Of a DNA stretch of 37,829 bases, positions 9,400 through 34,493 are shown one piece after another. This stretch comes from an uncultured Bacteroidota bacterium (GTDB taxonomy: Bacteria; Bacteroidota; Bacteroidia; Bacteroidales; P3). The number at the start of each line of letters is the position of its first letter. Positions within the stretch are counted from its first letter, which is position 1. The notes under the pieces were generated by a model. The model saw only the letters and a list, made by a program, of their open reading frames with translations, was not told the DNA's origin and searched no databases. A program made the position numbers and the translations under genes. The stretch spans positions 1-37,829 of the forward strand of contig CACYZN010000011.1 of the NCBI GenBank assembly GCA_902778925.1, read 5' to 3'.

Positions 9400-9491
9400 G
9401 CCCCTACGCCAGGCACCACGCCACATTTCGCCCAAATCCCCACCCCGTTTTACCCCCTTCCCCGCTCCTTCCGCACCTCTTCCCCTCCGGT

Positions 9492-9595
9492 CGTTGTACT
9501 ATCGTTGTACTATTGTTGTACTATCATTGTACTATCGTTCTTATGTTTTCAATAGTACAACGATAGTACAACAATAGTACAACGATAGTACAACG
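9492..9595 (+). repeat. 11-bp phased palindromic array, copy B (variant 11-mer)
   Basis: The left arm is four units of NNTTGTACTAT (9492-9535). The 16-nt centre (9536-9551) contains TTCTTATGTTTT. The right arm is four units of ATAGTACAANN (9552-9595). The arms pair at 43 of 44 positions. The centre is the same as in copies C and D, but the outer units differ. CCGG flanks both ends (9487-9490 and 9602-9605). Confidence 0.95.
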
Positions 9596-9727
9596 AGGCT
9601 ACCGGATGGGGAGAGGATGGGGCGCGAAGGGGGGACAGGGGTGGGCACGATGGGTGTATTTTTTTTATATGGCACACAATAATGGCGGCAAAGATGCGTT
9701 ATGAGAGACAATAGAAAAGCATAGAGT

Positions 9728-10507
9728 ATGAGAATGAACAAGATAATGGTGGCTCTGATGTTGTGTGCCGCCAGCCTGACCGCCGCCGCACAGAGCGGCC
9801 ACGACCTGCAGGACGACGAGCTGCACGGTGCCGTGAAGCGCATCGACGCCAAGATGTACGAAGCACGCTACGGCCTCGACGACCAGCTGGAGAAGGGCGA
9901 CCAGCTGGAGCACCTCATCACCGAATACAACCAGAAAGAGCAACGCCGCCAGCAGGTGTACCTCTCGGTGGCCGAGGATATTATATTCCGCACCCGCTAC
10001 AAGCACGACGGCTTCGGGCTCACCACCCTCGAGCACGTGGTCGACAACCAGGACCGTGTGATAGGGCGCACCTACTACGTCTACGACCAAGACCACACGC
10101 TGACCGAGGTCTATGTGGAGGACGCCGAACGCCAGGTGGAGAGCCGCCTGCAGCTGAGCCACGACGGCATGGGCCGCATCAGCCAGCGCAGCTACAACGA
10201 CCACCTGAACAACGTGTTCAAACGCGAAGTGTACACCTACAACAACGACGGCACGCTGCGCAAAGCCGTGGTCTACGACCGGTCGAAACAGAAGATTCAG
10301 GAGAAGCGCTGGGAATACGACGAGCAAGGCTATCCCACGAGCTACACACTGTACGACTACACCGAGGAGGAGCCGGAGCTCACCATCACCCTCTACCGCC
10401 GCCAGTACGACTCGCACGGCAACTGGATCAGCTGCACCGAGTACGAGCTGCTGGGCGACCGCATGCTCCCGACCTTCACCACAATAAGAACAATCGAGTA
10501 CTTCTAA
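9728..10507 (+). CDS. Secreted protein with YD-repeat-like strands, unknown function
   Basis: The 259-residue protein has a signal peptide (MRMNKIMVALML, cleavage near TAAAQ, about residue 22), so it is exported. After a charged helical segment the mature part is a run of short beta-hairpin motifs with Tyr-Asp pairs (YYVYDQDHTLTEVYV, YTYNNDGTLRKAVVYD, WEYDEQGYPTSYTLYD). These resemble YD/RHS-type repeats found in many small Bacteroidetes secreted proteins. It is far too short for a polymorphic toxin shell and has no toxin-like C-terminus. The stop overlaps the era start by one nucleotide (TAATG), so the two are translationally coupled. Function unknown. Confidence 0.85.
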   Translation: MRMNKIMVALMLCAASLTAAAQSGHDLQDDELHGAVKRIDAKMYEARYGLDDQLEKGDQLEHLITEYNQKEQRRQQVYLSVAEDIIFRTRYKHDGFGLTTLEHVVDNQDRVIGRTYYVYDQDHTLTEVYVEDAERQVESRLQLSHDGMGRISQRSYNDHLNNVFKREVYTYNNDGTLRKAVVYDRSKQKIQEKRWEYDEQGYPTSYTLYDYTEEEPELTITLYRRQYDSHGNWISCTEYELLGDRMLPTFTTIRTIEYF

Positions 10508-22039: not shown

Positions 22040-22070
22040 CAAAGATACAACTTTTCCCGAAACTGACAAA
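22040..22070 (-). promoter_or_regulatory. Promoter of thrS
   Basis: Complement strand TTTG (22067-22070), 19 bases, TATCTTTG (22040-22047), 42 nt before the ATG. Confidence 0.85.
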
Positions 22071-22242
22071 ATTTATTTTACTTAAAAAAATCTACCGCAC
22101 CCCCTGCCACGGCGACGGGGCCTGTTTTTCCCCTGTTTTCCGCCCCCGCTTCCCCGTTTTTCCACCTTCGCCCCTCGCACCCCGTTTTCGCCCCCTCTCC
22201 TTTCTCGCTGAAAACCAACTCCTCCGGCCATCCTCTCCGCTT

Positions 22243-22355
22243 CCCCTCCGGTACTTCTTATGTACTTCTTATGTATTTCTTATGTATTTCTTATGTTTTA
22301 AACATAAATACGACATAAGATATACATAAGAACGATATAAGAACGACCGGAGGGG
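22243..22355 (+). repeat. 11-bp phased palindromic array, copy C (best-flanked copy)
   Basis: CCCCTCCGG (22243-22251) and CCGGAGGGG (22347-22355) form the outer inverted repeat. Inside are four left units AYTTCTTATGT (22253-22296), centre TTTAA (22297-22301) and four right units (22302-22345). The core TTCTTATGT is conserved in nearly all units, while the two remaining positions vary between arms. Confidence 0.95.
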
Positions 22356-22400
22356 AAGGCTTGGGGAGGGGGTGGCGAGGGGAAAAAGATGAAGATTTAT

Positions 22401-22431
22401 TTTGTCGGTTTCGGAAAAGTGTGTATCTTTG
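22401..22431 (+). promoter_or_regulatory. Promoter of the TM1266-hydG operon
   Basis: TTTG at 22401-22404, 19 bases, TATCTTTG at 22424-22431, 40 nt before the ATG. Confidence 0.85.
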
Positions 22432-22471: not shown

Positions 22472-22714
22472 ATGGAAAAGCGAATAGGTACTATAACTAT
22501 ACTGATAAAAGACCGTCTGCAATCTGCAGAAATCAACCGGCTGCTGTCCGAGCATGCCGACATTATCCTTTGCCGACAAGGTTTGCCTTTCCACGACCGC
22601 AGCGTGGCCGTCATCTCGCTCATTGTCGAGGGCACGATGGCCCAGATCAACGGCCTCACCGGCCCCTTGGGGCGCCTGCAAGGCGTCGCCAGCAAGGCCG
22701 TGGTGACAGGCTAG
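22472..22714 (+). CDS. TM1266-family putative regulator of the iron-only hydrogenase system
   Basis: The 80-residue protein matches the TM1266 family, small ferredoxin-like/ACT-like folded proteins encoded beside [FeFe]-hydrogenase maturation genes. Matching segments are MEKRIGTITILIKDR at the start, ADIILCRQGLPFHDRSVAVI in the middle, and LTGPLGRLQGVASKAV at the end. A transcriptional or metabolic regulatory role has been proposed for the family but is not established. The next gene, 53 nt downstream, is hydG, which supports the assignment. Confidence 0.88.
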   Translation: MEKRIGTITILIKDRLQSAEINRLLSEHADIILCRQGLPFHDRSVAVISLIVEGTMAQINGLTGPLGRLQGVASKAVVTG

Positions 22715-30638: not shown

Positions 30639-30651
30639 CGTTCTTTCTTTG

Positions 30652-30724
<73 letters not shown>

Positions 30725-30785
30725 GGTCGTGTGCGAGCTTGTCGAGCAAACCAACGCACCACTGGCGGTTTCGGCGGTTCTGTAG

Positions 30786-30859
30786 TCGGGGTGAGAAGAC
30801 TCGAACTTCCGGCCTCCACGTCCCGAACGTGGCGCGCTAGCCAACTGCGCTACACCCCG
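30786..30859 (-). tRNA. tRNA-Pro (CGG)
   Basis: Acceptor CGGGGTG/CACCCCG beginning with C1 as usual for tRNA-Pro, anticodon stem CCACG/CGTGG with loop TTCGGGA giving CGG. CCA is not encoded. Confidence 0.95.
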
Positions 30860-30865
30860 CGATAG

Positions 30866-30919
30866 TGTCCTGGCAGGGATTCGAAGAGTCAATTGCTCTA
30901 CCAGCTGAGCTACCAAGAC
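30866..30919 (-). pseudogene. Broken tRNA, probably tRNA-Lys (CTT), 19-nt internal deletion
   Basis: The 54-nt sequence has an intact acceptor stem (GTCTTGG/CCAGGAC with A73), intact D arm (TAGCTCAGCTGGTAGAGC) and the 5' half of an anticodon stem and loop (ATTGACTCTT). It then jumps directly to the T-loop and 3' T stem (CGAATCCCTG). The 3' half of the anticodon arm, the variable loop and the 5' T stem are missing, so no cloverleaf can form. The residual loop CTCTT points to anticodon CTT (Lys). Confidence 0.8.
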
Positions 30920-31033
30920 ATTTTTCTCTTTCGCTTGTGTTCCGGCAACTTCATCGGCCATCCCTCAGGACAGCGTTGAACATGGACTTTGATGTTGCCA
31001 ACATCATTTCAAACTACTCTCTCTTTTGTTTTG

Positions 31034-31106
<73 letters not shown>

Positions 31107-31116
31107 GTTGCCTTAG

Positions 31117-31199
31117 TACTCCGGGTGGGACTTGAACCCACACGCCCTTGCGGGCAAGGGATTTTAAGTCCCTCGTGTCTACCATTCCACCACCAGAGC
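31117..31199 (-). tRNA. tRNA-Leu (TAA)
   Basis: A class II tRNA with a long variable arm (TGCCCGCAAGGGCG). Acceptor GCTCTGG/CCGGAGT, A73; anticodon loop TTAAAAT giving TAA. It lies between the two tRNA-Gly copies. Confidence 0.95.
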
Positions 31200-31226
31200 C
31201 TCTCTCTCTGATTTAGGAGTCTTTTG

Positions 31227-31299
<73 letters not shown>

Positions 31300-34051: not shown

Positions 34052-34085
34052 CAAAAGTACACAAAAATCCTCAACCGCCGCCAAA
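34052..34085 (-). promoter_or_regulatory. Promoter of mutS
   Basis: Complement strand TACTTTTG (34052-34059); TTTG partner at 34082-34085 with 22-base spacing. Spacing is longer than ideal. Confidence 0.6.
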
Positions 34086-34273
34086 AAAGTTACGCCCCCA
34101 AAAGTAAAAAGTTAAAAGCCAAAGCACAAGCCCCCTTTCAATTTCCAATTCTCAATTATCACCACCCCACCCCTGCTCTCACCTTTCACCGTTACGATGA
34201 ATTTCGAACTTAGCCTTTCACTTCCCTTCGCCACCTCTCACTCCCTTTCACTCCCTAAACTTTCCCCTTTCAC

Positions 34274-34308
34274 CTCTCCACTCTCCACTCTCCACTCTCC
34301 ACTCTCCA
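34274..34308. repeat. Five-copy 7-bp tandem repeat CTCTCCA
   Basis: Five perfect copies of CTCTCCA in the pyrimidine tract just before palindrome copy D. Confidence 0.95.
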
Positions 34309-34319
34309 CTCCGAGCCAT

Positions 34320-34427
34320 CCCCTCCGGTACTTCTTATGTATTTCTTATGTACTTCTTATGTATTTCTTATGTTTTAAACATAAATACAACATAAGAAAT
34401 ACATAAGAACGACATAAGAACGACCGG
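34320..34427 (+). repeat. 11-bp phased palindromic array, copy D
   Basis: CCCCTCCGG (34320-34328), four left units AYTTCTTATGT (34330-34373), centre TTTAA (34374-34378), four right units ACATAARNNNN (34379-34422), then ACCGG. Same orientation as copy C, with only a few differences. Confidence 0.95.
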
Positions 34428-34493
34428 ACCAGCCGAGGGCGCCGCATCGCCCCACCTCGAGCCAGTTGTAGCACGGCGATGCGCCACAACACA

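Follow-up and report, generated by a model that had tools for sequence, protein, structure and literature searches.

What are the long palindromes that stand between the genes of this uncultured gut bacterium, and what keeps them there? The window (the whole stretch of DNA that was analysed, 37,829 nt) holds four of them, which an earlier note, made from the letters, had placed to within a few bases of the extents found here (1205–1287, 9453–9634, 22240–22358 and 34324–34428). Tandem Repeats Finder and a de novo palindrome script bear out the 11-bp period that it described. The note's single shared design stands as a plan common to all four and fails for the building blocks, because the copy at 9492 is made of another unit, TTGTACTAT+NN. 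All four copies lie outside the genes called here and carry CCGG in their flanks, again as described, and no T-run directly follows any of the hairpins. The remark that no transposase is nearby holds as well: among nine window proteins scanned, none matches a transposase family and one is without any match. An Rfam scan of the window returned tRNAs only, and a search of a phage collection with the thrS region gave no match. Five tRNA genes are clustered on the minus strand at 30651–31299.

The copy at 22240–22358 (unstranded, like the other three) is A-type: its unit is TTCTTATGT+NN, its centre TTTTAAA, and it has an outer TTCCCCTCCGG layer. It lies upstream of both of its divergent neighbours, thrS (minus) and a short called ORF at 22472–22714 (plus) that precedes a radical-SAM/BATS gene (plus). 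On the thrS side stands a degenerate leader, CTGAAAACCA (22208–22217, plus), assigned with the help of the column consensus of aligned copies. Promoter-like sites of the form TAnnTTTG, after the Bacteroidetes −7 motif, point away from the copy, one to its right at 22424–22431 (plus) and one leftward, for thrS, at 22040–22047 (minus). Folded as DNA, the 22243 copy, the one of the four on which the fold was run, reaches −37.4 kcal/mol vs −8.7 ± 2.5 for shuffles (z −11.4), and none of 200 shuffles folds as well. The copy at 1205–1287 is A-type in reverse orientation and lies upstream of an M16 peptidase gene (plus), in a gap called divergent whose left gene is about 1 kb away; on its gene-start side is a CTG-N5-CAG leader (1290–1300, minus; CTGGTTGTCAG on the plus strand). 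Another A-type copy, at 34324–34428, lies upstream of mutS (minus), which has promoter-like TAnnTTTG sites at 34052–34059 (minus) and 34099–34106; on the other side of this copy is the end of the next called gene, for serine dehydratase (minus). The B-type copy at 9491–9596 has arms of TTGTACTAT+NN and, in its loop, a single A unit, TTCTTATG, at 9538, and its GC-rich outer arms extend to 9453–9634. It occupies a codirectional gap, with a tRNA-Phe/SPase II gene on one side and a gene at 9734 on the other, and a T-run lies about 60 bases to its right. Tandem repeats of 7–8 bp are also frequent between genes in this genome and its relatives (e.g. CTCTCCA at 34274–34311), and some of them adjoin 11-bp elements.

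Genome-wide, four copies is an undercount. The window's genome (G000), that of an uncultured gut bacterium, is a 2.23-Mb draft in 54 contigs, 93% complete. It contains 114 A-type TTCTTATGT palindrome cores (61 forward and 53 reverse at up to 3 mismatches; control 0), 580 matches to two tandem A units (2 mismatches; control 1) and 156 matches to two units of a second, B-type family, TTGTACTAT (1 mismatch; control 0). The stretches taken from it total 812 kb including the window, about 36% of the genome; contigs C1, C2, most of C8 and one C4 stretch were tiled, and many other stretches, as in the draft G007, were picked for holding copies, which inflates densities in both. They hold 71 copies (64 A, six B and one mosaic), 70 of which could be placed between genes called with a home-made dicodon finder. 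None of the 70 lies within a called gene, which is the strictly intergenic location that the earlier note had named as support for a chromosomal role. At one locus (L056 2711–2860), two A-type centres 56 bp apart share a gap, resembling a tandem duplication of the central half, and at another (L045 4651–4763) a mosaic palindrome has A-type units outside and a TTCAACTAT-like unit inside. In the G007 draft, 8 of 18 copies (L064, L101, L106, L109, L113, L115, L116 and L117) lie 59–224 bases from a contig end, as if the assembly breaks there.

Most palindromes are 60–150 bp long by the extents that the script reports (range about 60–180 bp). Aligned on their centres, the A copies follow a common plan in 11-bp register: from the outside in, a CTGANAAYCAG-like leader, one or two spacer units, TTCCYCTCCGG-like outer units, three or four A units and the 7-bp centre, beyond which comes a rough mirror image. 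Some copies, though not all, have a GTAG tag, which arises at their outermost A unit. Information falls from about 2 bits per base at the centre to about 0.2–0.3 at 95 bases either side, and mean pairwise identity among 63 copies is 0.913 in the core (a value inflated by finding the copies through that core), 0.41 and 0.40 in the flanks and 0.27 farther out. This gradient suggests that the core may be younger than its setting. Within the A unit (417 units gathered at up to 3 mismatches to a seed), positions 1–9 have entropies of at most 0.34 bit, and positions 10 and 11 of 1.31 and 1.37 bits. Nine nearly fixed bases and two free ones support the proposal that each unit spans one helical turn, as does the dominance of period 11 among the intergenic arrays of the sampled genus genomes. 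In G007 units variability is likewise highest at the two spacer positions, although positions 4–5 vary too; B-type units vary most at position 10 (1.29) and the units of G029 family I at positions 11 (1.02) and 5 (0.93). The 9+2 division loses its sharpness in G029 family II, G012 and G056. Correction from arm to arm within a copy was rejected, as left and right spacers agree no more than expected (18 matches observed vs 19.3 expected for L3/R3; 37 vs 37.2 for L2/R2).

How far does the period extend? Across the 812 kb of G000, 146 period-11 arrays are intergenic and none genic, with 0–2 intergenic arrays at each of periods 9, 10 and 12–18. Period 11 likewise tops the range 10–18 in G007 (31 intergenic, 0 genic), in the named relatives (15/0), in a further set of relatives (11/0) and in G056 (7/0 in 41 kb of stretches picked for hits). 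Larger samples of five relatives gave, at this period, 25/0 in G029, 17/0 in G012, 9/0 in G001, 6/0 in G002 and 5/1 in G016. Other Bacteroidales loci show no clear peak (574 kb; 6/0 at period 11 vs 5/0 at period 10), and loci L171–L198, mostly of Firmicutes plus five Bacteroidales MAGs, held no period-11 array in 454 kb. The nearest relatives in a ThrS search are uncultured Bacteroidales MAGs, mostly from rumen (RUG061, RUG13693, RUG156 and others; 84–95% ThrS identity), followed at 77% by horse-faeces MAGs, three of four labelled Paludibacteraceae. ThrS itself comes in two types within one genus, at about 66–95% and 39–43% identity to the window's, and an 11-bp array (L200 1062–1125) likewise lies upstream of thrS in G029, a gene of the second type (C1:41416).

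The same design is found in relatives, which disposes of the outcome that these four copies are all there is. The units are species-specific: TTCTTATATNN in G007, TTCTTCGATTG in G029, TTCTTCAGTAG in L119 and G023, TTGTACGATAC in L128 and GTGAGACGGAG in L146. A stricter script run on all genomes yielded 64 unit groups, 24 of which differ by more than 3 of 11 bases in any rotation. Several unrelated units coexist in G012, as A and B do in G000, and some species have tandem arrays without a palindrome. A mirrored TTCTTNNNT pattern matched 201 times in 7 of 38 genus genomes (G023 80, G000 68, G029 39, G008 9, G012 2, G016 2, G011 1; control 0; overlapping same-site matches counted separately), and among 198 order-level genomes in one, G000 itself. 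An IMG/VR viral contig matching the A pattern (L263 940–995) carries an AT-rich period-11 run of ACACATAAGAA and was judged a different element.

The main rule, absent from the earlier note, is that the elements sit upstream of promoters, above all between divergent genes. The 70 placed copies in G000 fall between divergent genes in 42 cases, codirectional in 25 and convergent in three; counted by gene pair, a copy is held by 41/71 divergent, 25/476 codirectional and 3/63 convergent pairs (odds ratio 24.7, divergent vs codirectional). Because most codirectional gaps are short operon gaps, we repeated the comparison with element-free gaps below 100 bp dropped, and the bias persists (41/67 divergent vs 25/126 codirectional, p 1e-8; 3/16 convergent). 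A divergent gap contains two promoters, so that part of the bias simply reflects a preference for DNA upstream of promoters. Divergent, codirectional and convergent pairs with an array number 13/20, 7/163 and 3/21 in G029, 6/9, 9/110 and 1/10 in G012, and 3/12, 6/84 and 0/11 in G001. The divergent bias is absent from G002 (0/8, 3/87 and 1/8) and G016 (0/8, 1/134 and 3/7), and 11 of 18 G007 copies could be placed (4 divergent, 5 codirectional, 2 convergent). Around A copies, TAnnTTTGC sites point away on both sides, 50–350 bp from the centre, and cluster 50–250 bp to its right and 100–350 bp to its left; array-to-promoter spacing is loose. An element in a divergent gap should lie outside the transcripts of both neighbours.

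The elements are also oriented. With B-type copies oriented by a crude rule, the left-hand gene is transcribed away from the element in 58 of 69 oriented copies and the right-hand gene in 49 of 69; among codirectional copies alone the bias (17/25, p 0.11) is not significant. Between array and gene start there is often a partner motif, CTG-N5-CAG, which lies within 100 bp of the array in 23/90 cases in G000, 16/25 in G029, 2/6 in G016, 2/9 in G001 and 1/4 in G002, and is rare beside the arrays of the named relatives (2/19), G012 (1/17) and G007 (1/29). Near arrays there are 25 such motifs in G000 vs one each for N4 and N6 controls, and 18 in G029 vs none for either. Its density near arrays is 1.52/kb vs 0.31/kb in other intergenic DNA in G000, and 3.95 vs 0.22 in G029, neither genome having an excess of the N4 or N6 controls there; in G012 the N6 control exceeds the motif. 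The gene beyond the motif starts there in 22/25 cases in G000 and 17/18 in G029.

Do species keep the arrays in the same places? To answer this we took reciprocal-best pairs of genes from different species, 410 pairs in 69 orthogroups, in which each gene has an upstream gap of 120 bp or more. A period-11 array lies upstream of both genes in 49 pairs, of one in 121 and of neither in 240; the same counts are 0, 17 and 393 at period 10 and 0, 0 and 410 at period 12. Weighted by orthogroup, sharing is 16.57 vs 8.60 ± 1.94 in permutations stratified by genome (with small samples pooled), by gap class and by divergence class, and none of 2000 was as high. The permutation set lacks G018, G021 and G027. 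Some orthogroups, two of L119/L120 among them, seem to flank a single gap from either side, which the permutation ignores. It replaced an earlier tally (13/23 vs 6/37) dominated by thrS. The 49 shared pairs are spread over 21 orthogroups, and thrS alone supplies 21 of the pairs. Shared arrays are seen at mutS (3/3), at a gene with members in G000, G029 and G012 (3/3) and at thrS (7/15), a count from a flag that misses short arrays, L119 being scored without one at thrS despite a palindrome there. Even in the best rotation, the units of 35 of the 49 shared pairs disagree at 4 or more of their 11 bases, as do those of random pairs; eight pairs differ at 2 or fewer, including L126/L131 with a common unit. 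Orthologous genes thus share an upstream array more than chance would have it, mostly with unrelated units.

The nuclease SbcCD is described as removing hairpins and cruciforms (PMC6265447). SbcD (TIGR00619) scores above cut-off in 15 of 38 genus genomes, and the same 15 have SbcC-like hits on the same contigs (E < 1e-29), none of them at the curated sbcC cut-off. No SbcD above cut-off was found in G000, G001, G002, G004, G007, G008, G009, G012, G014, G023 or G029; G000 has one partial 21-bit match to the profile and, at 93% completeness, gene absence there is not proof. SbcD-negative genomes hold 66 period-11 palindromes in 812 kb (G000), 17 in 321 kb (G007), 12 in 260 kb (G029), 6 in 177 kb (G012), 2 in 140 kb (G002) and 0 in 140 kb (G001), and four 20-kb SbcD-negative samples hold none. 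Six SbcD-positive genomes have none in 658 kb. Among genomes sampled for at least 90 kb, palindromes occur in 5/6 SbcD-negative vs 0/4 SbcD-positive ones (one-sided p 0.024). Three of the 201 pattern matches lie in SbcD-positive G016 and G011. The 14 placed period-11 arrays of the SbcD-positive G016, G018, G021 and G027 are non-palindromic by script and show no divergent bias (6 convergent, 5 codirectional, 3 divergent). SbcCD absence goes with palindrome richness, as a correlation drawn without a tree and not an absolute one.

How are these regularities best read? The reading that we favour, with a little less than even confidence, is a cooperative protein-binding array upstream of promoters, homogenised within species, the protein being proposed here; a binding array was already among the roles that the earlier note offered. 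On this reading the elements are chromosomal arrays that work at the DNA level: each helical turn offers one short site, and the run of sites is often mirrored to form a palindrome. A putative cooperative DNA-binding protein may fill consecutive sites on one face of the helix, along both arms towards the centre, where the mirrored arms would bring the two runs of sites together. Once occupied, the array would influence the architecture of the promoter region or insulate it, chiefly between back-to-back promoters, and the central units would be homogenised within each genome by recombination between copies. A nearly fixed nonamer and a free spacer per turn are the pattern expected if a protein reads the same face at each turn, the promoter-upstream address speaks for a role in architecture or insulation, and copies that agree at the centre and have diverged in their flanks are in keeping with recombination among them. 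We infer both the binding protein and its effect. The tolerance of long palindromes would follow from the loss of SbcCD. Given the unrelated units within G000 and within G012, a single specificity cannot suffice for all of them. The idea that gene conversion is driven by SbcCD cutting the centre fell with the failure to find SbcCD in G000.

A selfish dispersed repeat, MITE-like or REP-like, spread by an unknown enzyme and tolerated mainly upstream of promoters, seems to us rather unlikely. Invasion of the centres of older arrays would give nested layers, and by eye a G029 family I palindrome does sit within an outer unit resembling the array unit of G002; family I is moreover fairly uniform, about 104 bp long, with CCGTCTG...CAGACGG ends. 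An exact 26-base core at at least 100 places in G000 (among the matches listed), units that are species-specific, and truncated arms and an adjacent double copy (L056) among the A copies point the same way. One transposed unit should have a single age, however, and core and flank identities are uncorrelated (0.07). The flanks of G000 copies and of G029 family II fade gradually, and no target duplications were seen in the G000 or G029 alignments. Species also share positions beyond the control for divergence and gap length. A profile search for Y1/RAYT (PF01797), which 27 of the 38 genus genomes have, gave no match in G000 or G029; a RAYT-moved REP was rejected on the result for G000. The shared positions and the missing Y1/RAYT gene likewise weaken the earlier note's suggestion of a non-autonomous repeat maintained in trans.

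A third reading, which we consider improbable, makes each copy a topological element: as a cruciform or as the tip of a plectoneme, it would take up negative supercoiling from between divergent promoters. The 11 bp would be the pitch of underwound DNA, so that the letters are free and the period is not. The hairpin potential of the 22243 copy (z −11.4) and the loss of SbcCD from palindrome-rich genomes fit it, and also leave plausible the cruciform boundary that the earlier note had offered; the divergent-gap bias in G000, G029 and G012 agrees too. A repeat of about 11 bp is described as commonly tied to negatively supercoiled DNA (PMC4132750) and plectonemes as tied to sites upstream of promoters (PMC6301789), although the supercoiling reading of genomic periods is disputed (PMC7537859). 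Topology has no need, however, for a fixed nonamer with free spacers or for a sequence-specific CTG-N5-CAG, and some species have the arrays without the palindrome. Nor are the units selected for roll amplitude, which, with the roll values used, falls at percentiles 0.49 and 0.52 of permutations (n = 24); selection for DNA curvature was rejected on this result.

An RNA-level hairpin, as terminator or mRNA 3′ stabiliser, is highly improbable: the fold of the 22243 copy is strong and the codirectional copies (25/70) could be transcribed, but divergent gaps account for 42 of the 70, and promoter-like sites face outward on either side of the element. Convergent pairs rarely have a copy (3 of 63). 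The missing T-run directly after the four window copies, with the mainly divergent location, led us to reject an intrinsic terminator.

The earlier note's observation is thus confirmed and its interpretation partly supported. Beyond the protein-binding array itself, we tentatively entertain, as possible and short of probable, a genus-wide chromosomal promoter-spacer system that would conserve its position, its 11-bp phasing and, in several species, CTG-N5-CAG, with the unit letters rewritten per species, at many loci together, like eukaryotic centromere satellites and their binding proteins. It would amount to a bacterial DNA dialect that evolves fast and retains its architectural function, and loss of SbcCD may have released its palindromic form.

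Among known families, the closest in style is BrickBuilt, whose host Porphyromonas gingivalis belongs, like the organism here, to the Bacteroidales. This minisatellite-MITE has a 23-nt unit, 19 copies and IS-like terminal inverted repeats; it resembles our elements as a tandem minisatellite with leader and tail in intergenic DNA and, by its description, differs in having neither an 11-bp palindrome nor a change of unit letters at shared places (PMC4596501). REP/BIME elements (GTAG and CGTC families) are similar as high-copy, family-specific intergenic palindromes, often paired into larger hairpins; as described, REPs measure 20–40 bp and are found downstream of coding regions, for the most part in codirectional or convergent gaps, and those of the GTAG family are tied to RAYT transposases (PMC3733652). 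The arrays here, in contrast, are about 60–180 bp, 11-bp periodic and mainly in divergent gaps, in a host in which RAYT/Y1 was not found. ParR of plasmid R1 is reported to need at least two 11-bp parC repeats, ParR proteins binding direct repeats around which the DNA wraps (PMC9426499). Those iterons are direct repeats of a plasmid centromere with a par operon, whereas here more than 100 chromosomal copies have inverted arms. DNA uptake sequences of the Neisseria type are short repeats with species-specific dialects, sometimes inverted; they are single sites across genes and spacers, unlike tandem arrays that lie almost only in spacers. Searches of open-access PMC text turned up no paper about palindromic arrays of 11-bp units from Bacteroidales.

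Palindromes scattered through bacterial genomes are usually put down to transposon debris or terminators. The class described here has a strict helical period, a promoter-upstream address that species share with its sequence mostly replaced, and a link to an absent hairpin-cutting nuclease. The link to SbcCD bears on the factors that keep long palindromes in check in natural genomes. Should the array prove to be a binding platform, an unknown global DNA-binding factor of these Bacteroidales would come to light, together with a bacterial example of satellites that evolve in concert while their positions are constrained.
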